Below are positions 1,473-22,903 of a stretch of DNA of 64,000 nucleotides, in pieces. Source of the DNA: Haloarcula rubra. Lineage in GTDB: Archaea; Halobacteriota; Halobacteria; Halobacteriales; Haloarculaceae. Below the pieces are notes generated by a model, which did no database searches, had not been told where the DNA came from, and saw only the letters and a list, made by a program, of their open reading frames with translations. The DNA lies in the NCBI RefSeq assembly GCF_019599465.1, contig NZ_RKLR01000005.1:1-64000 (forward strand). The letters are read 5' to 3'. Within the stretch, counting starts at the first letter, position 1, and each line of letters begins with the position of its first letter. The translations under genes were made by a program, and so were the position numbers.

Positions 1473-2864
1473 ATGGATAGCGGATGGCGGTACCGGTTGG
1501 TAAGCATCTCAGGTGTGGTTCTTCTCACAGCTATCACTGTTGCACTCGTCAACAACGCAACTGTGCAGTCGGGCGCGCAGGCGATGCCAGTCCTCAAGCG
1601 GTTGTCAGGCAACCCTACGACTGCGCCTGAGTTTACTATTGAGCTGTTGTTGGCTGTCAGTGTTTTTAGTGGTGCGTTCATGCCTCTCTACAAGCCACGA
1701 CCCCGACGTATTCTCGACATTGTCTCGCTCACACACAAACGTATATTCGTCGCCGTATTTGCCCTGGCAACCATCGGCTACTTCGACTACAGCTACCGGT
1801 TACCACGGCTGAGCGTCTTGCTGATGACGCCGCTACTGCTCGTGGCACTGCCTGCATGGTTCGTCTGGATCCGCCAGCGGCCATCAACTAATGGAGATCG
1901 GACCATCGTCGTAGGAGACGATTTTGAGGTCATTGAGTCCGTCGCCAACGAGATCAAGGGACCACTGCTAGGCTATCTCTGCCCGACGAGTGCGATGCTA
2001 ACACAGATTGAGGCACGCGCTGTCCCCGATGGCGGCGTCGAAGCACTTGGCTTGGAGCGACTGGGTGGCCTCTCACGCATTGAGGATGTTCTCGTGGAGT
2101 ACGATATTGACACGGTAGTACTCGCATTTAGCCACTCCGACCGCGCGGAGTTTTTTGGTGCGCTTGACGCCTGCTACGAGCATGGTGTAGATGCCAAAGT
2201 CCACCAGAAGCATGCAGACGCAGTATTGACCGCTGACAGTCAGCAAGGGTCGTTGGTTGAAGTCGCTATCGAGCCGTGGGATTTGCAAGATTATTTAATA
2301 AAACGGGCGTTCGATGTTGTTTTCTCAGTGGCAGGGCTCGTCACGTTGACCCCCGTGATTTGTGTTATATCCGCTATAATCAAGTTAGAGGACCGGGGTC
2401 CAGTCCTGTACAGCCAAGAGCGAACGGCTGTCTTGGGCGAGACTTTCAACATCCACAAGTTCCGGACGATGGTGCCCGATAGCGGGAAGGTCGAACCGAT
2501 TGAAGACGTTGAGAACGACCGAATCACCAAAGTCGGACGGCTACTTCGACAGACCCATTTTGACGAAATCCCACAACTCTGGTCGATTCTCCGTGGAGAT
2601 ATGAGTGTGGTGGGTCCCCGCGCCGTTTGGACGGACGAAGAGCACCTGCTGGAAGCAGAATCGGAAATGTGGCGCAAAAGATGGTTTGTCAAGCCAGGGC
2701 TAACGGGGTTGGCACAAATCCACAATGCTAACAGTACCAATCCTGAACAGAAGCTGCGATACGATCTCGAATATGTACGCAAGCAGTCTTTCCGGTTTGA
2801 TTTGCAGATTGTTGCACGGCAGATCTGGAAAGTCTTTGACGATCTAATTAGTTCATTCCGCTAG
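1473..2864 (+). CDS. Polyprenyl (dolichyl) glycosylphosphotransferase, sugar transferase
   Basis: A 463-residue membrane enzyme of the Bac_transf family (WcaJ/EpsE type), which moves a sugar-1-phosphate from a nucleotide sugar to a lipid phosphate and so starts a glycan chain. The N-terminal half has membrane segments at about 9-27, 55-72, 91-105 and 112-132, then a Rossmann-like region (about 143-245). The catalytic half begins at KRAFDVVFS (277-285) with a further hydrophobic segment and carries the family blocks YSQERTAVLGETF (313-325), KFRTM (329-333), FDEIPQLWSILRGD (363-376) and MSVVGPR (377-383). Length is normal and the frame intact. It is the only whole copy: the gene after it (3009-4409) is a broken paralogue. 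The donor sugar cannot be read from sequence. Confidence 0.9.
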   Translation: MDSGWRYRLVSISGVVLLTAITVALVNNATVQSGAQAMPVLKRLSGNPTTAPEFTIELLLAVSVFSGAFMPLYKPRPRRILDIVSLTHKRIFVAVFALATIGYFDYSYRLPRLSVLLMTPLLLVALPAWFVWIRQRPSTNGDRTIVVGDDFEVIESVANEIKGPLLGYLCPTSAMLTQIEARAVPDGGVEALGLERLGGLSRIEDVLVEYDIDTVVLAFSHSDRAEFFGALDACYEHGVDAKVHQKHADAVLTADSQQGSLVEVAIEPWDLQDYLIKRAFDVVFSVAGLVTLTPVICVISAIIKLEDRGPVLYSQERTAVLGETFNIHKFRTMVPDSGKVEPIEDVENDRITKVGRLLRQTHFDEIPQLWSILRGDMSVVGPRAVWTDEEHLLEAESEMWRKRWFVKPGLTGLAQIHNANSTNPEQKLRYDLEYVRKQSFRFDLQIVARQIWKVFDDLISSFR

Positions 2865-4863: not shown

Positions 4864-5790
4864 TCAGTCCAAGTAGTACTCGACGGTTCGTTCGAGTCCC
4901 TCCTCGAACGAGTATTCCGGTTCCCAGCCGAGTGCTTCGATTTTCCCAGTTTCGAGTGCGTATCGCTGGTCGTGGCTGGCGCGGTCATCAACGAACTCAA
5001 TCAGGTCGTCGTCCGCGCCGACAGCATCCAGAATCGCTTCGGTGACTTCGAGGTTTGTCTTTTCTGCGTGACTCCCAACATTATAGATATCTCCAACCGT
5101 CCCCTCTCGGAGGGCTACGTCGAGTGCTCGGCAGTTGTCCTCGACGTAGATCCACTCGCGGACGTTCGACCCGTCTCCGTATACAGGAAGGTTCTCACCG
5201 GCGGCGGCATTCTGGATGAATTTCGGAATGAGTTTCTCGGGGTGCTGACGGGGACCGAAGTTGTTGCAGGTGCGCGTGATGAGGACAGGGAGGTCGTGAG
5301 TCGTCTGGAAGCTCTGTGCAAAGAGGTCCGCACCTGCCTTCGTCGCCGAATAGGGGTTCCGGGGATTGAGTGGATCGTCCTCGGAGAACTTCCCATCGAG
5401 GGTCTGGCCGTACACCTCATCGGTCGAGATCTGGAGGAAGCGCTCGATATCTGCTTCGTTAGCAGCGTCGAGGAGGGTCTGAGTACCCTGAACGTTCGTC
5501 GTGACGAAGGATTTCGCACCTTCTATTGATCGATCTACGTGGGACTCCGCCGCGAAGTTGACTATTGCATCGACGTCGGAAACGAGATCCGTAACGAGAT
5601 CGCGGTCGCGGATATTACCTTCGACGAACTCGTGACGTGGGTCGTCGAGAACACCATCGAGATTCTCCTTCGAACCCGCATACGTCAACGCGTCCAGCGT
5701 GATGATTTCGTCGTCTTCGTGCTCGCTGAGGACGTAATGAACGAAGTTTGACCCAATAAACCCAGCACCGCCAGTGACGAGAATTCGCAT
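4864..5790 (-). CDS. rmlB: dTDP-glucose 4,6-dehydratase
   Basis: Converts dTDP-glucose to dTDP-4-keto-6-deoxyglucose, the branch point to dTDP-rhamnose and other deoxysugars. The 308-residue protein is an extended short-chain dehydrogenase: NAD-binding GGAGFIG at 7-13, the RmlB active-site block STDEVYG at 122-128 with Thr-Asp-Glu, and YSATK (147-151) with the catalytic Tyr and Lys. The start at 5790 (MRILVTGG) is chosen because the Rossmann strand begins immediately; a longer frame to 5883 adds 31 residues with no fold. An RmlA fragment lies upstream on the same strand, but an insertion sequence now separates the two. No rmlC or rmlD is present, so the rhamnose pathway is incomplete in this window. 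Confidence 0.93.
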   Translation of the reverse strand: MRILVTGGAGFIGSNFVHYVLSEHEDDEIITLDALTYAGSKENLDGVLDDPRHEFVEGNIRDRDLVTDLVSDVDAIVNFAAESHVDRSIEGAKSFVTTNVQGTQTLLDAANEADIERFLQISTDEVYGQTLDGKFSEDDPLNPRNPYSATKAGADLFAQSFQTTHDLPVLITRTCNNFGPRQHPEKLIPKFIQNAAAGENLPVYGDGSNVREWIYVEDNCRALDVALREGTVGDIYNVGSHAEKTNLEVTEAILDAVGADDDLIEFVDDRASHDQRYALETGKIEALGWEPEYSFEEGLERTVEYYLD

Positions 5791-6044
5791 GGTATGACCG
5801 TGTTCGTAATAGCTATTTACATTATTGTCGGAATACGGTAGTATATGACCCGCCGTCGCTGCGAATGGTCTTCTGGCAAGCAATGTAGTATATGAAGGGC
5901 AGCAACGTATATGACATATCTGGGGACCTATCAGTCAACGCGACCTGCGGTCCGACATTCATTCACGCAGTTCAATCTCCGAGAATACGACTTTTTATGT
6001 GCCACGCATCGAAATATTCAGAGCCTGAAGTCCACAACAACTTT

Positions 6045-6052: not shown

Positions 6053-7048
6053 CGCTCTTGTGAAGCATGTTGTTGATTTTCAGAATGCGGCGTCGAGAGC
6101 ATGTTTGAGCGCTTCGTCACCTGGTTTTCTGTAGAGTTCGCAGCGGAGCTGAAAGGCTCTAAGATACGGTGTTAGCTTGTCTTTTGACACTCCTCGGTGG
6201 GGCGAGAGCCACCGTCGCGTCAGCGACGCGTGGCTCTCGCAGCTGTTGACGTGGATATCGCCGTCAGCGTATTCGCCGTCGCCGTGGACGACGTATTTGC
6301 GGGTAAATGCGTCGTCTTCTTCGAGCGAATCGTAGGCCCGAAATCCGTCCGTATAGACGGTCAGCGACTCCTCACCGTGGTTAGCAAGCAGGAGTCGAAC
6401 GGTCGATTCGTTGGCGGATTTCGCTGGGACGACGTACCGATCGTCCGAGCCCCGATCGACCAGCGTGAACACCGGCGGTTTGTCCCCGTCGTACGAACCA
6501 CGCCCGCGCGTAGACAGGCCACGCGAGCGCGACTCCTGGTCGCGCTCGCGGCCTTTGAGACCGGCAGACACGTACACTTCGTCGATTTCAACCGGTCCAG
6601 ACAGCGTGATCGAAGGCGCGTCGAGCGCTCTGGCGAAGCGCTCGACGCGCCGTCTCACCGTCTTGTAAGAAAGATCGAGTTCCGCCTCAATCTGCCGAAT
6701 ACTCGTGTTGAACCGTAAAAACACGTAGATCGTGAAGAACCACTCTTTCAGCGAGAGCTTCGAGTGAGCGAAGATCGTGCCGGTCTTGTCGTTGAACGTC
6801 CGACCGCAATTCTTACACAAATACCGCTGATACACCCGATAGCTGCCGTTTCTGACCGTCAGGTCAGAACGGCAGCGGGGGCACTCAACGCCATCACGCC
6901 AGCGAACCTGTTCCAGCAGGTCCGCTGCAGCCGATCCCGACACGAATCGGCTCATTGGGAACATATCGGGCACCGCTGGCGCGGTGCCCTTGCCCTCTTC
7001 GACTTTCAGCCGCACCTCTCGCTATCAACAATCTACTTCGCAAGAGCG
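6053..7048 (-). mobile_element. Complete IS1595-family insertion sequence, 996 bp
   Basis: The element is bounded by 25-bp imperfect terminal inverted repeats at 6053-6077 and 7024-7048; 21 of 25 positions agree and both outer ends read CGCTCTTG. Exact 8-bp direct repeats (ATCTGAGG) flank it at 6045-6052 and 7049-7056. One intact transposase gene fills the inside on the minus strand. Perfect flanks and an open transposase suggest a recent insertion that may still be mobile. It landed just downstream of the 59-residue zinc protein gene and upstream of rmlB, splitting a former minus-strand rml transcription unit. Confidence 0.93.
6080..7015 (-). CDS. IS1595-family transposase (ISH4-like group)
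   Basis: A 311-residue DDE-type transposase that cuts and joins the ends of its own element. An N-terminal zinc ribbon has Cys45, Cys48, Cys67 and Cys70 (CPRC...CKNC). A helix-turn-helix-like part (about 100-130, LSYKTVRRRVERF) follows, then the catalytic domain with EIDEVYV (Asp145), YTDGFRAYD (Asp223) and HVNSCESHA (His255, Asn257, Glu260), followed by RWLSPHRG, a block typical of this family. The open frame is complete. A shorter start at MFPMSRF (residue 18) is possible. The assignment to the ISH4-like group rests on the HVNSCE motif and is less certain than the family. Confidence 0.9.
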   Translation of the reverse strand: MRLKVEEGKGTAPAVPDMFPMSRFVSGSAAADLLEQVRWRDGVECPRCRSDLTVRNGSYRVYQRYLCKNCGRTFNDKTGTIFAHSKLSLKEWFFTIYVFLRFNTSIRQIEAELDLSYKTVRRRVERFARALDAPSITLSGPVEIDEVYVSAGLKGRERDQESRSRGLSTRGRGSYDGDKPPVFTLVDRGSDDRYVVPAKSANESTVRLLLANHGEESLTVYTDGFRAYDSLEEDDAFTRKYVVHGDGEYADGDIHVNSCESHASLTRRWLSPHRGVSKDKLTPYLRAFQLRCELYRKPGDEALKHALDAAF

Positions 7049-8149: not shown

Positions 8150-8435
8150 AGGCTTAAAATCTGGGTACTTTGCTATTACTATCTCTTATTCATCCCGCGA
8201 ATCATATAATAAGAGCACTATCAATCGTACGATAAATGGTATCATCAACAACGCTTAATCGTCGGACTCTCCCTCGTTTTGGATAGAGAGTTGTTGGTCA
8301 GTTCATATCGACAACTGAAAGTCACAGCGGGCAATGGCACCGCGAACACGCCACCTGACGAAGCATTATCAACATTCGAAGAAGCGACAGAAGTACAACG
8401 AAACACCCAAAACATGTCCGATAAATGCCTACAGC

Positions 8436-9857
8436 ATGGCAGATAGACCCTCGTCAACGCTCCTTGATGAGGATGGAAACCTCTTCGGCCTTCTCAATAT
8501 CGTCGATGCACTAGTCGTACTCCTTATCATTGCAGTCGTTACAGCAGGTGCAGCCCTCGTCTTACAATCAGAACCTGAACAAAACACCCCAGATCTCACG
8601 ACAACCAACGTCACGCTCGACCTCGGCACACACTCTCCCTATATCGTCTCCGAAATCAACGAAGGCGACACCTACAGTCCAGGTGGCAACGCCCAACTCA
8701 CAATCACAGACGTCCATCTCACACCACAAGGTGAGCAAACACGAGTCATCCTAAGAACCACACTCCAGGGAACCCCAAACGGAGACAGCCTCACCTACGC
8801 GAGTGCCCCACCTCGCCTTAGCCGTTCACTCACTATCGCCACGAGTCGGTACAAAGTAAGCGGCCAGATACGCGACGTGGGTGGTGACAACAGCCTCACC
8901 CAGGACAAAACGACGGTCGTCCTCAGAGACACGATGGGTGCCACCAACGCCCGAGACGTCACTCCCGGTGACGAGGTCCGCCTCGCCGGACGCACCGTCG
9001 CGACTGTCGAAGATGTAACCGCGTACGCAACTGAAGACCCAAGCCAACAAACCGTCTTCATCGAAGCTACCCTCGATACCTACACCCAGAATGACAACCG
9101 TCGGTTTGGCGGCACTCAACTCCGCCGCGGGCAAACAATCACACTCCCAGCCACCGACTACACGATCAACGGTCGGATCCAGCAGGTCGGCTCCAGCCTC
9201 CAACCCACAACTACTGACGTACTCCTCCAGACAACTGTCGACGCCGAAACGGCCGACCGGATCGGCGCTGGCAATATCGCGACCGTCGCCGGCCACGAGA
9301 CAGCCGAGGTCAAGATCGTTACTACCTACGCGACACAGAACCCCAACCAAAAACGCGTCTTGATTGGCCTCTCACTGACAACACTCGAAAACGGCGAACG
9401 CCAACAGTTCGGGGGTACCTACGTCCAGCGCGGGAACACTATCACGATCTCGACCGACAGCTACGAACTGTCAGGCGCCATCAAACGCGTCGACGCACTC
9501 GAACCGCGGGGCACACCCGAGACTCGGACCGTGACACTCCGGATGAGCGACGTCCGTGACGACATGGCCGATGCGATCGAACCCGGCATGACCGAAGCCA
9601 GTCGTGGTGAGACGATTGCTCGCATCACTCGCGTCAATTCAGAACCCTCGCTCATCATCACCACTGGCGACAACGGCTCTGTGAACGTCGTCGACCACCC
9701 GTTCCTGCGTGACGTTACAATCACGACCGAACTGCAGGTCCGTGAGACGACCAGCGGTGTGCAATTCAAAGGAGACTCCATCCAACAGAACTCGAGAGTC
9801 GTCATCAACCTCGGGACGATCACAATCGAAGCGACCGTCGTGAGTATCGGAGCCTAA
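8436..9857 (+). CDS. Membrane-anchored DUF4330 protein with tandem repeats
   Basis: A 473-residue protein with one N-terminal membrane helix (about 19-43) preceded by DEDGNLFGLLNIVDALVVL, the DUF4330 signature, and an otherwise extracytoplasmic beta-rich chain. The chain has tandem units of about 101 residues: FGGTQLRRGQTITL...YTINGRIQQVG recurs as FGGTYVQRGNTITI...YELSGAIKRVD, and a more diverged unit precedes them (YKVSGQIRDVG). The start at 8436 (MADRPSS) is chosen over an in-frame ATG 34 codons upstream whose extension is basic and unlike the family. It is followed by a small soluble protein (9903) and the oligosaccharyltransferase-like gene (10568). Function is unknown; position suggests a surface or glycan-related role. 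Confidence 0.8.
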   Translation: MADRPSSTLLDEDGNLFGLLNIVDALVVLLIIAVVTAGAALVLQSEPEQNTPDLTTTNVTLDLGTHSPYIVSEINEGDTYSPGGNAQLTITDVHLTPQGEQTRVILRTTLQGTPNGDSLTYASAPPRLSRSLTIATSRYKVSGQIRDVGGDNSLTQDKTTVVLRDTMGATNARDVTPGDEVRLAGRTVATVEDVTAYATEDPSQQTVFIEATLDTYTQNDNRRFGGTQLRRGQTITLPATDYTINGRIQQVGSSLQPTTTDVLLQTTVDAETADRIGAGNIATVAGHETAEVKIVTTYATQNPNQKRVLIGLSLTTLENGERQQFGGTYVQRGNTITISTDSYELSGAIKRVDALEPRGTPETRTVTLRMSDVRDDMADAIEPGMTEASRGETIARITRVNSEPSLIITTGDNGSVNVVDHPFLRDVTITTELQVRETTSGVQFKGDSIQQNSRVVINLGTITIEATVVSIGA

Positions 9858-9902
9858 CACCGAAAACGACATACTACATCACGCCAACCAGTATTCAGTT
9901 GG

Positions 9903-10349
9903 ATGGCTGGGGAATCCGAGTCGGCAGGCTCCATCGACACGGTTGGGGAGAAAATCAGCGAAATCACAGACGGGTCACGAATTATCCGCACTGGGCGAGC
10001 AATGGCGACTCGAACGACGAGTCTCATCCAAGAGTCGTACTGCTACCGCTGGCTCACCAAGGAACCTGACCCAGACGTCATCGTCATCGATCTCCGAGAG
10101 ACGTACACTGTCGGCCCGTTCATAACCCTACTAGACAAAATCATCCCGCATGTCGAACGAGCGTGGCAACACTCGCGTGTTGGAGCAATCACCACCAATG
10201 TGTACGAACAGCTTAATGAGACAGTGTTCGAACCACTGTCCGAAACGCGGGGCTACGAGCTCGCCGTCGCCGTGTTGACACCACCAGAGCCACCAGAAGA
10301 AGAGCAGCCGTCAGCTGACGATGCAACGTCGGACGACGAAACGGCCTGA
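9903..10349 (+). CDS. Uncharacterised haloarchaeal protein between DUF4330 and the AglB-like gene
   Basis: A 148-residue acidic protein without signal peptide or membrane segment. The core (about 20-125) alternates predicted helices and strands (DVIVIDLRETYTVGPF, YELAVAVLTPP) and ends in a Pro/Glu/Asp-rich tail (from about 126). I do not recognise a family. It starts 45 bases after the DUF4330 gene on the same strand, so the two are probably co-transcribed, and the oligosaccharyltransferase-like gene follows from its own promoter. A cytoplasmic accessory role is only a guess from position. Confidence 0.7.
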   Translation: MAGESESAGSIDTVGEKISEITDGSRIIRTGRAMATRTTSLIQESYCYRWLTKEPDPDVIVIDLRETYTVGPFITLLDKIIPHVERAWQHSRVGAITTNVYEQLNETVFEPLSETRGYELAVAVLTPPEPPEEEQPSADDATSDDETA

Positions 10350-10567: not shown

Positions 10568-12916
10568 ATGAGCGAGGAGATCGGGGCACCCACGTTACTG
10601 GAGGAGCGTCCCGAGCTGGAACCTGCACTTGAGACCGTTCTTGCCGTCGACGCTGAAACCAAGGAATGGACCTTCGACGACGTCGCTATCGACTCGGGCG
10701 CATTCGGTGAACTCGTCTCACGTGGCGTCGTCGAAAAAACCGACGACGGCCAGTACCAACTTGCCAATCCCGACACAGTCAGACGAGCACTCAACGGCGA
10801 ATCCACAGACGAAACCGACACAACCCCCAGTATTTCCACGCCAACGATTGCCTGGCCAACGGTCAATACGTCAGCCACCGGCATGCTCGTCGGAGCACTC
10901 GCTGTCGTTTTTGTCGCCCGTACCTACATCCTCGGCTCGATCTACCGCAACGGTGACATCGTCCTCTCGGGGAACGACCCCTACTACTACCGCTACTGGG
11001 TCGAGCAGGTGGCCGCCCAAGCTGGTGGCGCCGACCTCTCTTCGCTCGCTGTCCTCCCAGATGCAGTCACGAAGGGCGAACCGCTGATGGTCGCAACATT
11101 GTGGTGGCTCGCCGAACTCTTCGGCGGCAATCCTGACATCATTGGCCACGTGCTAGCGTGGTACCCCGTCGGATCAGCGCTCCTCTCGGCACTGCTCCTC
11201 TACGTACTTGCCGTCCGAATCACCAACGACCGACGAATCGGGATCGCCTCGGTACTCTTACTCGCGTTCATCCCGGGCCATGCATTTCGAACGAGCCTTG
11301 GATTTGCTGACCACCACGCCTTCGACTATCCGTGGCTGGGACTCACGGCATTCGCACTCGTCGTCCTCCTCACACTCGGAGAAGACGACGACACCACCTG
11401 GCTCCGAACACTGACACCATGGCTGGCCGCAGGTACACTCGGAATCGGCATCACCGGACAGGTCCTCTCCTGGGAAGCCGGCCCACTGCTAATCGCACCG
11501 GTCGGACTATCCGTACTATTGGCGACAATCGTCGACCGCCACGCAGGACGTAGTGCAACACTCCGATACATCCCCGTCGTCGTCGGAACCGGCCTCGGCG
11601 CACTGCTCACATGGTTACTCCACACCGAAGCGGGCTGGCACACATCACTCGTCGCCAGTACGCCAACACTCCTGTTCGTCGGCACCGTCGGCGTCGTCCT
11701 GACGGCAATCGCCGTCGACCAACTCGGTGGGACGGCCAAACACCTGCTCGCTGTCGACGTCGTCGCCGGCCTACTCGGATTCGGACTCGTTCGCACCGTC
11801 TTTGCCGAACAGTTCGCCGAGGCACTCGCACGCACGGACGCACTGTTCCGCACGGACGCTATCGCCGAAGTGTATGGTTTGTTCAGCACCGAATCGTTCG
11901 GCTTCCTCTTCCTGCTGGGCTTCACACTCGTCCTCGCGCTCCCAGCGATGCTGTGGGCAAGCCGCCTCGCCTCGGAGGGCCGAACTGACTGGCTCGTCGC
12001 CGCCGTCTACGCCTGGTACTTCCTCGGCCTCGCAACCATCCAGGTTCGATTCGTCGGTGAGTTCGCGACCTTCGGCGCGCTGTTTGCCGGCTATGGGTTC
12101 GTCTACCTCGCCGCTCACATCGATCTTGCCCGGCCGGTGACCACGCGACCAGCGTCGCTCGTCTCCCCGAACATCCCGGACACCAGAACGATCGGTGCGC
12201 TCGTCGCACTGTTTCTCATCGTCGGGAGCTTCGGCATGCTACAGACGCCGGTCAAGACGAGCCAGGTGATGACCGACGACGGCGCCCACGACACAGCGGT
12301 CACGATCGAAAACGACAGCGCCGAACGGGCACTCGAGTATCCGCAAAACTACGTCCTCAGTCAGTGGAGTCACAATCGGATGTACAACTACTTCGTGAAC
12401 GGTGAGTCACGAAGCTACGGCTACGCTCGAAGCAACTACGCCTCATTTGCTACCACAACGGACCCACAAGGGTGGGCCAACAGCCACCAGAATCGCGTGG
12501 GCTACGTCGTCGTCACAGACGACATCCCAGTCAACGATTCGGCGGCGCTCTACACGCGACTGTACGAAAACTTCGGCTCACGGACCGACGGCGTCGCCGG
12601 AGTGGGACAGTACCATCCAGTCTACGCCAGTCCCGATGGCAGCTACAAGGCGTTCGCCATCGTCCCCGGTGCAACGATACAGGGGACGGCTGCACCAAAC
12701 ACGACGGTAACAGTCAGTACGACTGCCTCGGTCTCAGACACGACGTTCACGTACGACCGACAGACAGTCACCGATCAGAACGGCCGCTTTGCAGTCACTG
12801 TGGCGAACCCAGGCGAGTACGACGTGCAGACGGCCAATAGCTCGTACACCGTCTCAGTAGCAGAGACAGCCGTATATCAAGGACAGAATGTGACGGTGCA
12901 ACAGAAGCAATCCTGA
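10568..12916 (+). CDS. AglB/STT3-like oligosaccharyltransferase with variant catalytic signature
   Basis: A 782-residue polytopic membrane protein of the STT3/AglB superfamily, whose members transfer a lipid-linked glycan to Asn on secreted proteins. Recognisable landmarks are GNDPYYYRYW (135-144, first acidic metal-binding motif), GFADHHAFDYP with DHH at 248-250 (second acidic motif), an AIAEVYG-type block before STES (external loop 5) and IQVRF near TM12. The C-terminal WWDYG motif is missing: the aligned place reads LSQWSHNR (Gln599-Trp-Ser-His-Asn603). Before the first membrane helix lie about 100 cytoplasmic residues that resemble a winged-helix unit (WTFDDVAIDSGAFGELV...). The C-terminus (about 698-782) is an Ig-like domain. 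At 782 residues it is shorter than typical haloarchaeal AglB. It may glycosylate with a different acceptor preference or be a different GT-C transferase. Confidence 0.8.
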   Translation: MSEEIGAPTLLEERPELEPALETVLAVDAETKEWTFDDVAIDSGAFGELVSRGVVEKTDDGQYQLANPDTVRRALNGESTDETDTTPSISTPTIAWPTVNTSATGMLVGALAVVFVARTYILGSIYRNGDIVLSGNDPYYYRYWVEQVAAQAGGADLSSLAVLPDAVTKGEPLMVATLWWLAELFGGNPDIIGHVLAWYPVGSALLSALLLYVLAVRITNDRRIGIASVLLLAFIPGHAFRTSLGFADHHAFDYPWLGLTAFALVVLLTLGEDDDTTWLRTLTPWLAAGTLGIGITGQVLSWEAGPLLIAPVGLSVLLATIVDRHAGRSATLRYIPVVVGTGLGALLTWLLHTEAGWHTSLVASTPTLLFVGTVGVVLTAIAVDQLGGTAKHLLAVDVVAGLLGFGLVRTVFAEQFAEALARTDALFRTDAIAEVYGLFSTESFGFLFLLGFTLVLALPAMLWASRLASEGRTDWLVAAVYAWYFLGLATIQVRFVGEFATFGALFAGYGFVYLAAHIDLARPVTTRPASLVSPNIPDTRTIGALVALFLIVGSFGMLQTPVKTSQVMTDDGAHDTAVTIENDSAERALEYPQNYVLSQWSHNRMYNYFVNGESRSYGYARSNYASFATTTDPQGWANSHQNRVGYVVVTDDIPVNDSAALYTRLYENFGSRTDGVAGVGQYHPVYASPDGSYKAFAIVPGATIQGTAAPNTTVTVSTTASVSDTTFTYDRQTVTDQNGRFAVTVANPGEYDVQTANSSYTVSVAETAVYQGQNVTVQQKQS

Positions 12917-13022: not shown

Positions 13023-14399
13023 CTACTCGTCTTCACGGAGTTCCAGATAGCCGAGTGCCTCCAGCTGCTCTTTGTCGGGCTGATCCTTCGGCGGACGGGG
13101 CGTTTTGGTATCCCGACCGAAGAGGCGCTGAGGAATCTTCCGCTGGAGACGGGCAGCCACGCGTTGATTGGAGTCAATGACGTTCGTTTGCTCTCCAGGA
13201 TCAGAGGTCAGATCATAGAGCTGTTTGTCAGACTCAGTGTGGATATACTTCCAGTCACCCGTTCTGATCGTGACCGCTGGAACATCCATCCCGGGCTGCC
13301 CTAAGGAGATAACGTCTCGCCCATCACCCTCGTACAGAGGCGTCCCGAGGAACGAATAGTCGTCTGTATCCACGTCGTGGAACGAGCAAATCGTCGGGAC
13401 GAGATCCAGCAATTCACGCTGTTCCACAATAGTATCAGTGGGAGGGGTCCTGGCTGGCTTCAGAATGAGCGGAACGTGGGTCAATTCATCGTAGGGGAAA
13501 TTTCGGTGGAAGAACAGACCGTGTTCGCCGAACTCTTCACCGTGATCACTCGAGAAGAGGATGTTCAAATCATCCCAGATATCCGCCTGCTCAAAACTAT
13601 CGAAGAGCCTCGAGATGTGTCGGGAACAGTATCTGAGATCCGAATCGTAGCGGTCGATCATTCGTGATGTCTCAGCCTCAGAGATTGCTTCAGGCGTTTG
13701 TCCGGCTGTCTTCATCAAGCGACGGATTTCTTCGTCATCTGCCGGTTCGTCACAGTAGGCCGGGTCCGTGTCGTGAATCCCATACGGTCGGTGGGCCTCC
13801 ATATAGTGAAGCCAGAGAAAGAACTCCTCGTGCTCGTTGTCCTGAATCCAGGAAATCGCTCTATCAGTGACCTCTTCAGCACTGTTATAGCCTCGAAGCC
13901 GAACGGTATCGGCGTCGCCAAACATTGCATTGTACGGTCGCTGCAGGAAATCATACACCTTGGTGAGGCGATGGTGCTGTAACCAGTCACTAACATCCGC
14001 AGCAACGCTATCGAGCTGCAGCAGCGCCTTCTGAGCTGTAGACCGTTCAGCCCCGTCTTCGAAATCATCTCGACCCAGATCCACCATCTCGTCGAATCGG
14101 AACTCACCCTGAACCATATCGATTCCAGTCTGGGTACCGATGGCGGTCGTCTGGACGCCCGCAGAGCTCAAAACGGAGGCGATGGTGGGGAATGCACCGA
14201 GATCACCGTACGAGAGATACCGTGACGTATGGAAAGAAGGGATCGAGATGCGTGTGTATGGGCCATTCGAAAACGCGTTTTCAAACGTGGTCCCTTCCGC
14301 AGTCAGCCGATCAAGGACCGGCATCGTGTCACGTTCGTAGCCATATTGTTTGAGATGATCTGCACGAAGAGAGTCAACTGTTAGTAAAACCGTCGGCAT
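13023..14399 (-). CDS. Sulfatase-like hydrolase/transferase
   Basis: A 458-residue cytoplasmic-looking protein of the alkaline phosphatase/sulfatase superfamily (PF00884). It starts MPTVLLTVDSLRADHL, with the first metal-binding Asp, and has the second metal site at SSDHGEEFGEHG. The nucleophile region reads GPYTRISIPSF, so a Ser or Thr takes the place of the formylglycine Cys and the usual C/S-x-P-x-R arginine is a Phe. It may therefore act on phosphate or sulfate esters by a serine/threonine mechanism. GAGG stands three bases before the ATG at 14399; a GTG at 14408 would add three residues. It faces the AglB-like gene tail to tail, and sulfated glycans are known in haloarchaeal S-layers, so glycan modification is a reasonable inference. 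Confidence 0.82.
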   Translation of the reverse strand: MPTVLLTVDSLRADHLKQYGYERDTMPVLDRLTAEGTTFENAFSNGPYTRISIPSFHTSRYLSYGDLGAFPTIASVLSSAGVQTTAIGTQTGIDMVQGEFRFDEMVDLGRDDFEDGAERSTAQKALLQLDSVAADVSDWLQHHRLTKVYDFLQRPYNAMFGDADTVRLRGYNSAEEVTDRAISWIQDNEHEEFFLWLHYMEAHRPYGIHDTDPAYCDEPADDEEIRRLMKTAGQTPEAISEAETSRMIDRYDSDLRYCSRHISRLFDSFEQADIWDDLNILFSSDHGEEFGEHGLFFHRNFPYDELTHVPLILKPARTPPTDTIVEQRELLDLVPTICSFHDVDTDDYSFLGTPLYEGDGRDVISLGQPGMDVPAVTIRTGDWKYIHTESDKQLYDLTSDPGEQTNVIDSNQRVAARLQRKIPQRLFGRDTKTPRPPKDQPDKEQLEALGYLELREDE

Positions 14400-14609
14400 A
14401 TACCTCACTCATAGATGGCTATTAATATAGATGGCTGAATCTCTGCCTCCCTGACGGGTTTGATCAGTACCTCCTATTCTGGCATAGCAGTGGTATTCGG
14501 ATACGTCAATCGCAGTGGCCGGATGAGCCACGGATACTAACGTAGCCAACCATCCGGAAACGAACACATCCGCACAGACGTTCGAGAGAATGCCGGGCTT
14601 CGGCGTCAC

Positions 14610-16400
14610 CTACTCCACAGTCACACTCTTGGCCAGATTCCGCGGCTTGTCGATGTTCCGCCCGAGCAGATTCGCGACGTGATACGACACCAGCTGGAGA
14701 TGCGTGTTCGCCAACACTGCCGCAGCCCGCGGATGCGTCTCCGGTAGCTCCAACACGTGATCGGCGTACCGATCCACGTCGGACTGCCCGTCGGAAATCG
14801 CCACCACAGGTGCGTCCCGCGCTTCGACCTCCTTGACGTTCCCGACGGTCTTCCGAGCCTGTTCGCCGTCGCCGGTCACCACCGCAAACACGGGCGTGTT
14901 CTCGGTCACGAGCGCCAGCGGGCCGTGTTTCAACTCACCCGACGCGAAGCCCTCGGCGTGCTTGTAGGTAATCTCCTTCATCTTCAGCGCTCCCTCAAGC
15001 GCGACCGGGTACTGGTAGCCCCGGCCGATGAAGAAGTACGCACCCGCATCTTCGTACACTTCGGCCACGTCCTCCGCAACGGACTCGTCCAACACCCGCT
15101 GAACGTTACCCGGAAGTTCCCGCAACGCCGTAATGATCTCGCGAACGTCACCGGTGTTCGTCATCCCCAGTGCAAGCAGGTTCAGCGCCACCTGCTGAGA
15201 GGAGAACGTCTTGCTCGCAGCCACCCCGATCTCGGGGCCGGCCCGGATGTAGAAGGCGTGGTCACATTCTCGGGCAGCTGTCGACCCGACGACGTTCGTG
15301 ACCGTCATCGTCCGTGCGCCGCGCTTGCGGGCCGCCCGGAGCGCAGAGAGGGTATCGGCCGTCTCACCGCTCTGGGTCACGCCCACGACCAACGCATCGC
15401 CGATTGGCGGCACTGACGTGGCGTATTCACTCGCCAGGAACGCCTGTGCGGGGATGCCGGCCTCACGGAACAACTGCGCTCCATAGAGCGCGGCGTGATA
15501 CGACGTCCCGCAGGCGACGAACTGCACACCGGTCGGGGAGAGGTCACCGAGGTCCTCGATATCGACCGTGCCGGCCATCTCGTCGACACGGCCGCGGAGA
15601 CACTGGCGCAACGCCCGTGGCTGTTCGTGAATCTCTTTGAGCATGTAGTGGTCGTACCCACTCTTGCCCGTCTCCTCCGGGTCCCACTCGATCGTATCCA
15701 CATCCTTCTCGACGGGCTCCCCGTCGAGCGTCGTGACCGTCCAGCCTTCGGCGTCAAGTTTGGCGAACTCTCCGTCGGCGAGATAGACGACCTGATCAGT
15801 GAAGTCACGGAAGGCGGGCACGTCGCTCGCGAGGAACGTTTCACCCTCACCGAGGCCCAACACGAGTGGCGAGTCGTTACGCGCCGCATACACCGTCTCC
15901 TCGCCGGCGATGACGACAGCGACGGCGTAACTCCCCTCCAACCGAGATACAGCGTCACGAACCGCCCGTTCCGGGTCGACGCCCGCTTCGAGGGCGTCCT
16001 CGACGAGGTGTGGGACGACCTCGGTGTCGGTATCGGAGGTGAACGTATGGCCGGCGCCGACGAGTTCGTCACGCAGCGACTGGTAGTTCTCGATGATGCC
16101 GTTGTGGACGACCGCAACGTCTCCAGTACAATCCTGATGTGGATGGGCGTTCGCGTCGGTCGGCGGCCCGTGGGTACTCCAGCGCGTGTGACCGATACCG
16201 ACGTCGCCGGTCAGGGCCGACCCCTCCAGCGTCTCTCGCAGGTCATCGATCTCGCCGGAGGTCTTGACGACGTCAACGCCGCCGTTGGCCATCGCGACAC
16301 CGGCCGAGTCGTAGCCGCGATACTCCAGCTTCGAGAGGCCATGCACCAACGTCTCGAGCGTTGCGTCGTCACGCCCAACACAGCCGATGATCCCACACAT
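14610..16400 (-). CDS. glmS: Glutamine-fructose-6-phosphate aminotransferase (isomerising)
   Basis: Makes glucosamine-6-phosphate from fructose-6-phosphate and glutamine, the entry to UDP-N-acetylhexosamines. The 596-residue chain begins with MCGIIG, whose Cys2 is the glutaminase nucleophile after Met removal, and has RWSTHG and NGIIENY in the class II amidotransferase domain. Two SIS sugar-isomerase domains follow (GTSYHAALYGAQ, SQSGETADT, SKTFSSQQ, LEGALKMKEITY), and it ends with DKPRNLAKSVTVE, the usual GlmS tail. Its ATG overlaps the stop of glmU by one base (TGATG), so the two are translationally coupled. Confidence 0.96.
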   Translation of the reverse strand: MCGIIGCVGRDDATLETLVHGLSKLEYRGYDSAGVAMANGGVDVVKTSGEIDDLRETLEGSALTGDVGIGHTRWSTHGPPTDANAHPHQDCTGDVAVVHNGIIENYQSLRDELVGAGHTFTSDTDTEVVPHLVEDALEAGVDPERAVRDAVSRLEGSYAVAVVIAGEETVYAARNDSPLVLGLGEGETFLASDVPAFRDFTDQVVYLADGEFAKLDAEGWTVTTLDGEPVEKDVDTIEWDPEETGKSGYDHYMLKEIHEQPRALRQCLRGRVDEMAGTVDIEDLGDLSPTGVQFVACGTSYHAALYGAQLFREAGIPAQAFLASEYATSVPPIGDALVVGVTQSGETADTLSALRAARKRGARTMTVTNVVGSTAARECDHAFYIRAGPEIGVAASKTFSSQQVALNLLALGMTNTGDVREIITALRELPGNVQRVLDESVAEDVAEVYEDAGAYFFIGRGYQYPVALEGALKMKEITYKHAEGFASGELKHGPLALVTENTPVFAVVTGDGEQARKTVGNVKEVEARDAPVVAISDGQSDVDRYADHVLELPETHPRAAAVLANTHLQLVSYHVANLLGRNIDKPRNLAKSVTVE

Positions 16401-17590
16401 CAGCGGGTCACCTCCACACCCTCGTCGACGTTTCCATCGACGGTCACGCCGGCATCGAGCGTGACGTTCGGCCCGACGAGCGACCCCGGCGAGAAACTCA
16501 CGTCACCACGGGCACGCGCCCGGTCGGCGATGACCGCACCCAGCCGTTGATCCTCGAAAACACGCGTCCCGACCTGCACGTCAGCTGGCCCGCCAGGCAC
16601 CACTGTACTGGCACCCAGGTGGACATCCTGCCCGGTGACGGTCTGCAGTAGCGTCGATCCAGCGTCGACGCGGGTATCAGCATCCAACACACTTCGCTGG
16701 ACCACAGTGTTCGCGCCGACAGTGACGTTCGCACCGAGTGCGACGTCCGGTCCGACAATCGCGTCAGGGCCGACCTCACAGTCCGGGCCGATGACGACAG
16801 GGCCTTGCACCACTGCTTCGTTGTGCACGCGCGCGGAGTCATCGATCCACACCTGTTCACGACGGGCGCTTTCGACGACACGCCCACGAGCAAGCACCTC
16901 ACGTGCAACGGTCAGCAGGTCCCACGGGTAGGTCGCATCGACCCACATCCCGTCGACCTCCACCCCACGGACGCGATTCGACTCGATGAGGTTCGCGAGC
17001 GTATCCGTGAGTGCAAGCTCACCCTCCTCTCGAGAGGTCTCCTCGATGGCGTCGAAGATGGCCGCCGAGAACGCGTAGACGCCGCCGTTGATGAGGCGAT
17101 AATCACCCTCTCGTGGCTTCTCGACGAGGTCCGAGATGACACCGTCACGTACCTCGACGGCGCCGTAGCGGCGCGTGTCCTGTCGCTCGACGACGGCAAG
17201 AGAAGGGTCACCCGTCGTCGAGAAGGTGTCCGCAACTGCTTCGACAGTCCCGGCGTCGATGAGCCGGTCCCCATTCAAAACGAGCGTCGGTCCATCGACG
17301 GCTGACTGGGCCTGCAGGAGTGCGTGGCCGCTCCCGAGTTGCTTGTGCTGTGTGACGTAGGTGATTGGGACACCCCGATACGTCGGTCCGAAGTGGTCCT
17401 GTACCCGGTCACGCTTGTAGCCTACGACAGTCAGGAGTCGCTCGACCCCAGCCTCGACCAGCGCATCGAAAACGTGCGCCAGAATCGGCCGGTTGCCGGC
17501 CGGCAGCATCGGCTTCGGCCGGTTCCGCGTGAGCGGGCGAAGCCGCGTGCCCTCGCCGGCAGCGAGGACGACAGCCGTGTCGATTTCCAT
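16400..17590 (-). CDS. glmU: Bifunctional sugar-1-phosphate nucleotidylyltransferase / acetyltransferase
   Basis: The 396-residue protein should attach UTP (or dTTP) to glucosamine- or N-acetylglucosamine-1-phosphate, and acetylate the amino group as archaeal GlmU homologues do. The N-terminal nucleotidyltransferase domain has LAAGEGTRLRPLTRNRPKPM at 9-28 with the pyrophosphorylase signature, LNGDRLID and NGGVYAF. From about 245 there is a left-handed beta-helix of hexapeptide repeats (VVIGPDCEVGPDAIVG...). Overlap by one base with glmS makes a two-gene operon supplying amino-sugar nucleotides, likely for N-glycans. The exact sugar is inferred from the partner gene. Confidence 0.9.
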   Translation of the reverse strand: MEIDTAVVLAAGEGTRLRPLTRNRPKPMLPAGNRPILAHVFDALVEAGVERLLTVVGYKRDRVQDHFGPTYRGVPITYVTQHKQLGSGHALLQAQSAVDGPTLVLNGDRLIDAGTVEAVADTFSTTGDPSLAVVERQDTRRYGAVEVRDGVISDLVEKPREGDYRLINGGVYAFSAAIFDAIEETSREEGELALTDTLANLIESNRVRGVEVDGMWVDATYPWDLLTVAREVLARGRVVESARREQVWIDDSARVHNEAVVQGPVVIGPDCEVGPDAIVGPDVALGANVTVGANTVVQRSVLDADTRVDAGSTLLQTVTGQDVHLGASTVVPGGPADVQVGTRVFEDQRLGAVIADRARARGDVSFSPGSLVGPNVTLDAGVTVDGNVDEGVEVTR

Positions 17591-19689: not shown

Positions 19690-22452
19690 TTAGTTGTCGC
19701 GTCGGACTGCGAGGAGCGCAGCAGCGACGAGGGCGACGAGGGCGAGGACCGCGGTGAAGCCGGGGCCACTGTCACCAGTGGTCGTCTCCTCCGTGGTCGT
19801 CTCCATCGTCGTGGCCTCTTCGGTGGTCTCCTCGGTCGTCGGCTGCTCCGTGGTCGTCTGCTCCGTGGTCGTCTGCTCCGTGGTGGTCTCCTCGCCGGAG
19901 ACAATCGTCACGGCAGCAGAGTCAGTCACGGCGGAGCCGTTGGCCGTGTACGGGCCGTCGTTGTCCGGGAAGTCGTAGGTCTGGTCACCGTCAGTGTCGA
20001 GGTGCGGCATCGCAACCGCCGTGAAGTCCTCGGACTGCGTGGTGTCCAGGGTGACCTCGACGTCCTCGTGGCTGCCAGCTTCGAGGTAGCTGGAGGCACC
20101 GATGACGTCGCCCGTTGCGGAGCCGTTGTGGATGGCGATGAAGCCGCCCTGCGACAGCGTTGCGCTGTCGACGACGACCGTCTCACCGTTGGACTCCTGA
20201 TCGCTGATGCTCACGGACGCGGACGGAGCGGCACCGATGGTGCCGTCAATCTCGTCGTCCGAGATAGCAGTCGAGGCAGTGAAGTTCGTGCCCGGGCTGT
20301 TCTCGCTGAAGTCAGCGACCGCAGTGAAGCTACCGTCCGCCTGAACGTAGGCAGTCGGCTGCTTCAGGAACGGACTGGCATCAGACTGGCTGCTAATCTT
20401 GACCGTGACTTCCGTCCCGGGTGCGACGTTGGTCGTACCGGGGATTTCCTGACCGCTCGCGGCCTGGACCGTGATGTCCTGGTCACCATTGAGCGTCGAG
20501 TCAGGCTCCTCGAAGGTGAACGTGTCGTTCACTGCGACAGTGTCTTCGGAGAGATCAGACTCCTCGCTCACGGTGAAGTTAGCCACGTACTCGTCGCCGT
20601 CCTTGACAGCGCTGAGGTCGCCATCGGCGCTGTTGACCGAGTCGGTGTCAATGGCAACGAAGTGCGTGTCGTTAGCTTCGTCGTAGATAACTGCAACATC
20701 CTCGGTTGTAATATCGTTGATGTTGAAGTCATCTCCGGCACTGTTCGCACCGGGGTTGGCTTCCTCCAGCGTGAGCTGGAAGATACCGTCCTCCGTACCC
20801 GAAACGGACTTATAGGCCTCAGCGTCGCCCCCTTCAGATTCGAATGCTCCTTCGAGACCCGACGCCTCAACCTGCACGACGAGCGTGTCGTCAAAGGCGA
20901 CGGTGTCGGACTGCGTCAGGTTGTCGTTAGCAGCGAGCTCGTAGACTGCCGCGACGTCGTCGTCGTCAGCGGCATCGCTGATATCGCTGAACGTGTCGTC
21001 TGGGGCAGTCCAGACCTGTGCGTTCTCGGTCGAACGCTCCTGCAGGTCCAGCGTTGCGACGTCCTGACTGTCGTCAACGACGCCGTTCGAGAGGGCACTC
21101 GATCCGGCACCAGCAGTAACGTTCATGGAGTAGGACGACGCGTCAAGGATATCGTTACCGGCTGGTGGTCCGTTGAACGTAGCGGTTTCACCATCACCAG
21201 CGATTTCGACGTCGTCGTCGTCGTTGACGGTGTCAATGACACTGCTCGGGCTGCCGCTCGCCGCGAGGAAGGTGTTGAACGTGACGACAACTTCACCGTC
21301 ACCGTTACCGTCCTCAACGTCGAGAGTCATCTGGTAACCGTCGTCGTTACGGTTACCGATCGTTGCGGTTGCTTCGTCGGTATTTTCGAGCTCGATTGGG
21401 ATGCGTGCGATGTCACCACGCTCTTCGGAGACGACGGACTCACCGAAGGAGGCTTCGGCGTCGCCAACCGAGACGACTTCGAACTCATCCGTGGTGGACG
21501 TGATACCGGTTCCAACGTCGGTCACTTCGACCGTGTAGTTGTCCGGATCAACGTCCGAGAAGCTGATAGTTGCTTCACCATCGGAGTCGATAGTGGCCGT
21601 GGTGTCGGCGTCGACGTTCCCGTTCGCGTCGATGAGTTCAGCGTCGACGTCCCGGCCGATAGAGCTCGCTTCGACCGTCACTTCGACGTCTTCGTCCTCG
21701 TCGAACGTGCTCTCAACAGCAGTCGCCGAGAAGCCGAGGTCTTCGACGGAGAGCGTCGCGTTCGTGTCACCGTAGTTGGCGTCGCCGCTGGTCTGGATAT
21801 TGTAGTCGCCGAGTTCCAGGTTGCCCGTGCCCAGAACGTAGACGAAGTCGCCGCCAGTCCCACGCGTCCGGCTGACACTGTGGTCTTCGGACGGCTCAGA
21901 TACGATGTCGAACTCGGTATCAGGCTGTCCCTGGATGACGACGTTGGCACCACGGAACTCTTCGTTGCTACTGTCACCATCAGCGAGGTCAACAGTGGTC
22001 GGAGCGTAGATCGCATCGAAGTCCTCCTCGGAGTCGATGGCGACAGCCGGGTCGCTCGTGTCAGAGACTCCGCTGAAGCTCACGTTCTCGATACGCTGGA
22101 CCTCTGTATCGGTGGCGATGACGAGCTGGTCACCGTTGAGGTAATAGTCTTGTCCCTCGGTGCCGAAGTCAACGTCCTGCTCCGAACCATCGGTCTTACC
22201 AATGGTGACGGTGGCCGGAGAGCCAGTAACCTGGACATCTTGATCGAACTGTACTTCTAGGACCGGGTCGCCTTCGCTAACATCTGTCAGCACGCTAGCT
22301 GCGGCATTCCCAGCCCCATAATGGACTGCTTGGTCAACCGTAGGCTCGTCCGCTGCAGCGGCACCGGCGAACGCGGTGCTCATCGCGAACACCGAGAACA
22401 CCATCAGCGCTGTCAGGAACAGGCTACGGATTTTTTCGTTTGTATCTGTCAT
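19690..22452 (-). CDS. csg: S-layer glycoprotein with PGF-CTERM anchor
   Basis: The 920-residue protein starts MTDTNEKIRSLFLTALMVFSVFAMS, the signal peptide peculiar to haloarchaeal surface glycoproteins, with cleavage probably after AGAAAA. A long acidic beta-rich ectodomain follows (Asp and Glu abundant, repeated DGNGD-like Asp clusters) with several N-glycosylation sequons (NYT, NLT, NFT, NDT, NGS). A Thr/Glu linker built of TTEQ and TTEE units (about 860-895) is a likely O-glycosylation zone. The C-terminus has DSGPGFTAVLALVALVAAALLAVRRDN: PGF, hydrophobic helix, then Arg-Arg, the archaeosortase A recognition signal that leads to lipid attachment. Start 22452 fits the signal peptide; an upstream ATG at 22512 is rejected. 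It should be the main cell-wall protein or a close paralogue. Confidence 0.9.
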   Translation of the reverse strand: MTDTNEKIRSLFLTALMVFSVFAMSTAFAGAAAADEPTVDQAVHYGAGNAAASVLTDVSEGDPVLEVQFDQDVQVTGSPATVTIGKTDGSEQDVDFGTEGQDYYLNGDQLVIATDTEVQRIENVSFSGVSDTSDPAVAIDSEEDFDAIYAPTTVDLADGDSSNEEFRGANVVIQGQPDTEFDIVSEPSEDHSVSRTRGTGGDFVYVLGTGNLELGDYNIQTSGDANYGDTNATLSVEDLGFSATAVESTFDEDEDVEVTVEASSIGRDVDAELIDANGNVDADTTATIDSDGEATISFSDVDPDNYTVEVTDVGTGITSTTDEFEVVSVGDAEASFGESVVSEERGDIARIPIELENTDEATATIGNRNDDGYQMTLDVEDGNGDGEVVVTFNTFLAASGSPSSVIDTVNDDDDVEIAGDGETATFNGPPAGNDILDASSYSMNVTAGAGSSALSNGVVDDSQDVATLDLQERSTENAQVWTAPDDTFSDISDAADDDDVAAVYELAANDNLTQSDTVAFDDTLVVQVEASGLEGAFESEGGDAEAYKSVSGTEDGIFQLTLEEANPGANSAGDDFNINDITTEDVAVIYDEANDTHFVAIDTDSVNSADGDLSAVKDGDEYVANFTVSEESDLSEDTVAVNDTFTFEEPDSTLNGDQDITVQAASGQEIPGTTNVAPGTEVTVKISSQSDASPFLKQPTAYVQADGSFTAVADFSENSPGTNFTASTAISDDEIDGTIGAAPSASVSISDQESNGETVVVDSATLSQGGFIAIHNGSATGDVIGASSYLEAGSHEDVEVTLDTTQSEDFTAVAMPHLDTDGDQTYDFPDNDGPYTANGSAVTDSAAVTIVSGEETTTEQTTTEQTTTEQPTTEETTEEATTMETTTEETTTGDSGPGFTAVLALVALVAAALLAVRRDN

Positions 22453-22903
22453 AGTTTGTTGGTTGCTATCGGGCGGCGTCAGCCGTTTTCCACGTGGTCG
22501 GAACGCAGTCACCGTGACCGCGCGTAGACCGAACCGGTGTACTCACTTCTGGCGCCATGGGTAGGGGTACGGACCATTCTTTTGGTGGGTATGGTAAATG
22601 CTTTGTGTCTCTGAAAGCCATCTATGTCAACACAACACAAACCCGAGATAGGCGGTGTTTAACACGAAAACGAGACAGTGAATGCTATCTGCGCCCGTTC
22701 TCGCATATCACCACGCCGTAGTAATCAGAACGAGTTCATATCTATGGCCCTCTCTACGGTTGATGACGTGGGCACGCGCACGACTCCACACATAGCGGGC
22801 AGCACACCAACCAGACAGTACTCGCTGCATGAGTAGCACGACCACGTGTACCGCTTCGTGACTAGCGCCAACGCTTATCACGGCGCCACCAAACCATCGA
22901 CCA
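22453..22903. other. Divergent intergenic region of the S-layer and acs genes
   Basis: Holds the promoters of both divergent genes. On the minus strand a TATA-like CATTTACCATA lies near 22590-22600, which would give a leader of roughly 110-120 bases; S-layer genes of other haloarchaea also have long leaders. No RNA gene or repeat was recognised. Sequence to the right is clearly more GC-rich than to the left, so the composition boundary of the window falls here. Confidence 0.4.

Follow-up and report, generated by a model that had tools for sequence, protein, structure and literature searches.

Which acceptor could be served by an archaeal oligosaccharyltransferase (OST) that carries QWSHN at the place where canonical AglB has WWDYG? 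The question is raised by a gene in the first 64,000 nucleotides of contig NZ_RKLR01000005.1 of Haloarcula rubra, the stretch that we have analysed and that we call the window. A first-pass annotation had proposed that the encoded protein keeps the catalytic core of the OSTs with a changed acceptor recognition, and that it may serve either a different sequence or a non-protein acceptor. We have compared the protein and its homologues (family F) with known OSTs in sequence, modelled structure and gene context.

Fold and acceptor pocket of the family F protein

The gene and its recognizable parts are the following (window coordinates, strand).

10568..12916 (+): AglB/STT3-like oligosaccharyltransferase paralogue (family F), 782 aa; TIGR04154, PF18079, PF02516 and AfAglB fold match
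10568..10804 (+): N-terminal winged-helix-like domain, residues 1-79, family-wide (models, fold comparison, alignment)
10970..10987 (+): GNDPYY, first acidic motif, residues 135-140; N136 and D137 invariant in 92 homologues (alignment)
11309..11317 (+): DHH, second acidic motif, residues 248-250; D/E248 and H249 in 92/92 (alignment)
11858..11872 (+): AIAEV, residues 431-435, with the external-loop Glu (TIXE-type); E434 in 89/92 (alignment)
12038..12052 (+): IQVRF, residues 491-495; R494 in 92/92 (alignment)
12263..12664 (+): C-terminal catalytic unit in a shorter form, residues 566-699, lacking the DK-motif segment (alignment)
12362..12379 (+): QWSHNR, residues 599-604, in place of WWDYG, with xW[G/S]xNR as the consensus of the family (alignments)
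12668..12889 (+): AglB_L1 peripheral beta domain, residues 701-774 (PF18079)

Curated models match the protein as an AglB only weakly, with 128.5 bits for TIGR04154 (the curated cut-off of 450 is not reached), 38.7 bits for PF18079 (AglB_L1) and 24.7 bits for PF02516 (STT3). The canonical AglB encoded elsewhere in the same genome scores 842.8 bits with TIGR04154. The AlphaFold model of the protein (79 homologues as input, pLDDT 93.6) superposes on AglB of A. fulgidus (7e9s) with a Z of 36.2 over 648 residues, and the OST fold, a GT-C membrane domain followed by a C-terminal catalytic unit, is present. The model lends strong structural support to a protein that would work like an OST. It is not a canonical AglB, because we looked for WWDYG, the DK motif and a TIGR04154 score above the cut-off and found none of them.

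When profiles of the protein and of canonical AglBs were aligned (hhalign, E 1.4e-57), NYVLS-QWSHN came to lie opposite YGVMS-WWDYG, which confirms the position originally given for the replacement, and the positions of GNDPYY, DHH, AIAEV and IQVRF were borne out as well. WWDYG appeared neither elsewhere in the 782-aa chain (sequence and profile alignment) nor at that place in any of the homologues. QWSHN has to be discarded as a fixed family motif. The column mostly reads xW[G/S]xNR in the 92 members, as part of an invariant xW[G/S]xNRxxN (W600, R604, N607), and QWSHN is its local form; the separate clade that had been anticipated exists and has a fixed replacement of WWDYG, but QWSHN is not constant in it. 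Since V596, W600, R604 and N607, together with N136, D137, H249 and R494, never changed in 92 homologues, the replacement of the motif is not due to chance.

The loss of the DK-motif segment, which completes the Ser/Thr(+2) pocket (PMC3703281), escaped the first-pass annotation. The stretch from W600 to VPGA, the start of the last domain, is 97 residues long in family F (90-114) and has a median length of 246 in canonical AglB, and no conserved Lys was found between these two points in the 92 members. Both halves of the Ser/Thr(+2) pocket, the WWD and the DK segment, are shown to be gone in all 92 members. The metal, lipid-sugar and Asn-activating residues are kept in the 782-aa protein, and these together with the replaced WWDYG support the proposal of a preserved core with a different acceptor recognition.

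At the other end of the protein, residues 1-79 modelled alone gave a winged-helix-like domain (pLDDT 87.5), and their PDB matches were nearly all winged helices with modest scores; the assignment is of moderate strength because the best Z was 7.4. The presence of this head had been correctly noticed, but it is a trait of the whole family rather than a peculiarity of this protein.

Distribution, gene neighbourhood and sugar carrier

Relatives of family F were found in 217 of 391 Halobacteria genomes (E 1e-10), a few of them as weak matches. Canonical AglB was present in each of the 116 genomes in which we looked for it, so that family F is an extra enzyme. Among 345 genomes of the phylum from outside Halobacteria no protein came near the family scores (best 133 bits, against at least 734), and the matches inspected there keep WWDYG or a variant with YG. 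Two AglB-like proteins from outside Halobacteria, L170 (WWSYG) and L178 (SWSYG), might represent another change of the acceptor pocket; they are altered at the same motif as family F, but keep the YG and score far below the family. Phage records gave no match to family F. Some members are longer, 960-1030 aa (L365 7929-10877, L057, L064, L130), and those of Haladaptatus are annotated with a LamG-like domain. One gene (G202:C3:880848-883285) is split into two overlapping frames, likely by a frameshift or as a broken copy, and an Asn-bearing S-layer gene lies 8 kb from it.

The surroundings of the gene in the window contain the following features.

1473..2864 (+): polyprenyl-phosphate sugar-1-phosphate transferase (PF02397), a recurrent partner
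4864..5883 (-): NAD-dependent nucleotide-sugar epimerase/dehydratase
6080-7015 (-): IS1595-type transposase, separating the epimerase gene from the family F locus
8334..9857 (+): DUF4330 protein, recurrent neighbour in 6/30 loci
9903..10349 (+): 148-aa protein paired with DUF4330, recurrent in 6/30 loci
13023..14408 (-): sulfatase/alkaline-phosphatase-fold protein, adjoining the family F gene
14610..16400 (-): GlmS-like glutamine-fructose-6-phosphate aminotransferase, the same in Halobacterium salinarum
16400..17590 (-): sugar-1-phosphate nucleotidyltransferase with hexapeptide repeats (GlmU-like), in the same order beside family F in Halobacterium salinarum
19690..22512 (-): S-layer-type surface glycoprotein (halo_sig_pep, PGF-CTERM), with an ATG near 22452 as its likely start; no other halo_sig_pep protein was found in the genome
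24967-26679 (+): 571-aa fusion of a Phage_integrase-like N-terminal part (PF00589, E 1.4e-6) with GAF, BAT and HTH_10

The DUF4330 and 148-aa genes (8334-10349, +) lie directly upstream of the family F gene, and DUF4330 is also found within 20 kb of family F on plasmids of Haloplanus and Salinigranum. The gene of the 571-aa fusion is an odd one, sitting between two AMP-binding enzymes. We considered the exopolysaccharide cluster HAH_1661-1667 of Haloarcula hispanica (PMC5467301) as the same locus; this was not established.

A homologue of the PF02397 transferase of the window occurs in 203 of the 217 family F genomes (Fisher p 1.8e-51, kinship ignored), and 71 of 84 located pairs are at most 50 kb apart. 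The neighbours of family F include AglF-like and AglM-like enzymes, epimerases and a sulfatase, and on two plasmids a BacA/UppP diphosphate phosphatase adjoins it. The link to PF02397, these neighbours and BacA/UppP suggest a glycan carried on polyprenyl diphosphate, so that gene context, taken by itself, points to such a glycan as the putative donor of family F. For canonical haloarchaeal AglB, the donors are monophosphates (PMC3871713, PMC8674786). This connection, like the one to S-layer genes, was missing from the first-pass annotation.

Asparagine at the N terminus of S-layer proteins

The linkage to S-layer genes was followed mostly in one genus, that of genome G013, which is Halorubrum-like by its S-layer signal (52 genomes, family F in 25). 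There, family F lies 354-11137 bases (median 2.4 kb) from an S-layer-type gene in 20 of 20 pairs on the same contig. For the other genera, 9 of 15 chromosome-scale contigs with family F have it within 105 kb of an S-layer gene, against 1.4 expected, with a threshold picked after the data had been seen.

In the genus of G013, an Asn is found within residues 1-5 of the mature S-layer protein in 22 of 22 genomes with family F and in 4 of 24 without it (p 5e-9 for 21 against 24, the 22nd genome, G008, having been added later). We placed the signal cleavage sites by visual inspection of AxA runs, and the signal query of this search, taken from one protein of a family F genome, ended in Asn, although it was used alike for both groups. 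Over residues 6-60, Asn is at background in both groups. The first early Asn stands in N-X-S/T in just 3 of 21 proteins (4 of 22 including G008). On an EF-2 tree, family F status switches at least 8 times, and in independent pairs Asn follows family F 6-7 times and opposes it in none (median p 0.016). The contrast is also seen in other genera (early Asn in 18 of 22 genomes with family F and 7 of 26 without, p 2e-4), where the first early Asn belongs to N-X-S/T in 8 of 18. For the copies on plasmids, the S-layer protein of Salinibaculum begins with V-N-T-A and that of Salinigranum with E-N-T-N; Salinigranum has a second, more distant PGF-CTERM protein without early Asn.

A single Asn rule for all members is ruled out by the exceptions. 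No early Asn is found in the S-layer-type protein of the window itself (mature start ADEPTVDQ), in the S-layer proteins of G173, G042 and G014, or in the csg of the Haloplanus plasmid. Part of the association may also reflect linkage, because family F and the S-layer gene adjoin and are perhaps inherited as one cassette. Against pure cassette linkage, the ungapped identity among the S-layer N termini of the family F genomes is just 11% in the genus of G013.

Possible roles and comparison with known systems

The strong link to the PF02397 transferase, UDP-sugar enzymes, a sulfatase and glycosyltransferases, along with the loss of the peptide Ser/Thr pocket, would also suit a ligase or polymerase of an exopolysaccharide island whose lipid-linked glycan goes to an exopolysaccharide or a lipid instead of a protein. 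We consider this unlikely, since the adjacency of the S-layer gene and the pattern of N-terminal Asn would not be expected from it and since family F retains the Glu and the acidic motifs by which OSTs activate Asn. Of the two kinds of acceptor put forward originally, another Asn site on the S-layer protein is the likelier one. If family F were simply a further AglB that uses N-X-S/T sequons, its motif being merely divergent and its glycan donor the only difference, then the fold, the AglB_L1 domain and the catalytic residues that it shares with AglB would fit, and sequons do make up 8 of 18 early Asn in the other genera. That both pocket elements are missing from all 92 members, and that in the genus of G013 the majority of early Asn have no Ser/Thr at +2, makes this reading rather improbable.

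Two further roles appear more remote. As no enzymes have been assigned to archaeal O-glycosylation (PMC8241124), and given the S-layer linkage, family F might add the Ser/Thr-linked disaccharide of S-layer proteins, but it occurs in just 217 of 391 genomes, the associated residue is Asn, and the S-layer of Haloferax volcanii has O-glycans (PMC8241124) with one AglB homologue (PMC3871713), all of which makes this very improbable. We give slightly less credence still to a catalytically dead paralogue with a regulatory or structural role; the added winged-helix head and the change at a site that is essential in AglB (PMC2952790) would fit it, but a dead enzyme would not keep the acidic motifs, Arg494 and the residues of the new motif invariant in 92 homologues, and Glu434 in 89.

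Most likely, then, family F is an OST whose Ser/Thr pocket has been lost and which serves a second S-layer glycan, one borne on a diphosphate. From the order of the genes and the sequences of the targets it is probable that family F is a second haloarchaeal oligosaccharyltransferase beside AglB, independent of Ser/Thr and directed to the early Asn of S-layer proteins. The PF02397 transferase would load a sugar-1-phosphate on dolichol phosphate, and the dolichol-pyrophosphate glycan would be built and then flipped. At the outer face of the membrane, family F would transfer it to the early Asn by means of the metal site and the external-loop Glu, recognizing a free flexible N terminus or the residues around the Asn instead of N-X-S/T, and UppP would recycle the diphosphate. 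A wider proposal, for and against which we see the case as evenly balanced, is that of an OST class without the N-X-S/T sequon, glycosylating the Asn nearest the free S-layer N terminus from dolichol-pyrophosphate donors and spread across Halobacteria together with the S-layer gene in a movable cassette. In Haloferax volcanii one N-glycan does not depend on AglB, and there is no second AglB homologue (PMC3871713), so that another type of enzyme also exists; family F is ruled out as the low-salt enzyme of this species, which has a single AglB homologue (PMC3871713). If family F is active as proposed, it would make sequon-free N-glycosylation available for engineering and cast new light on the exchange of surface types among haloarchaea.

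The discovery of glycoproteins outside eukaryotes began with the S-layer glycoprotein of Halobacterium salinarum. Its Asn-2 bears a sulfated repeat glycan, made on a dolichol pyrophosphate carrier and sensitive to bacitracin, which persists when Ser-4 of the sequon is replaced, and no second enzyme is known for it (PMC2952790, PMC8674786, PMC6591318). For this independence of Ser there was "no suitable explanation"; multiple OSTs were proposed, and a single OST gene was found (PMC2952790). Genome G018 of this species, whose bacteriorhodopsin is identical to the solved protein, contains a family F member (C1:932302-934620) at 3.3 kb from csg, the gene of the S-layer protein (1181 bits with TIGR04216); GlmS, two GlmU-like genes and a PF02397 transferase come next. 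The csg product (L182 11447-13984) starts with A-N-A-D, without a sequon at Asn-2; the literature describes Asn-Ala-Ser, so that the published replacement of Ser-4 has a natural counterpart here. Family F would place the sulfated repeat glycan on Asn-2, and such an activity would account for a long-standing departure of Halobacterium from the rule of N-glycosylation. What it adds is a concrete gene, adjoining csg in that species and with the right lesion in its Ser/Thr pocket. Family F also contradicts a proposed rule by which the OST paralogues of an organism all have one type of Ser/Thr pocket (PMC3703281).

Compared with known systems, family F shares with PglB/STT3 (GT66) the GT-C fold and the divalent-metal site (Z 25-32), while the WWD pocket and the MI/DK motif of those enzymes are both missing. 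With canonical AglB (AglB-L of A. fulgidus, 7e9s/3waj) it has in common the fold, GNDP, DHH, the loop Glu, QVRF and AglB_L1. It differs from canonical AglB (TIGR04154) in having xW[G/S]xNR and no DK segment instead of WWDYG plus the DK segment, a catalytic unit about 150 residues shorter, an added winged-helix head, and linkage to the PF02397 transferase and the S-layer gene. Compared with Asn-2 of Halobacterium salinarum, the Asn of other genera floats over positions 2-5, and some members go without an early Asn. What is predicted for family F as to donor type, acceptor protein, acceptor position and independence of Ser/Thr matches the enzyme sought for Asn-2 throughout, and in that species the family F gene adjoins csg.
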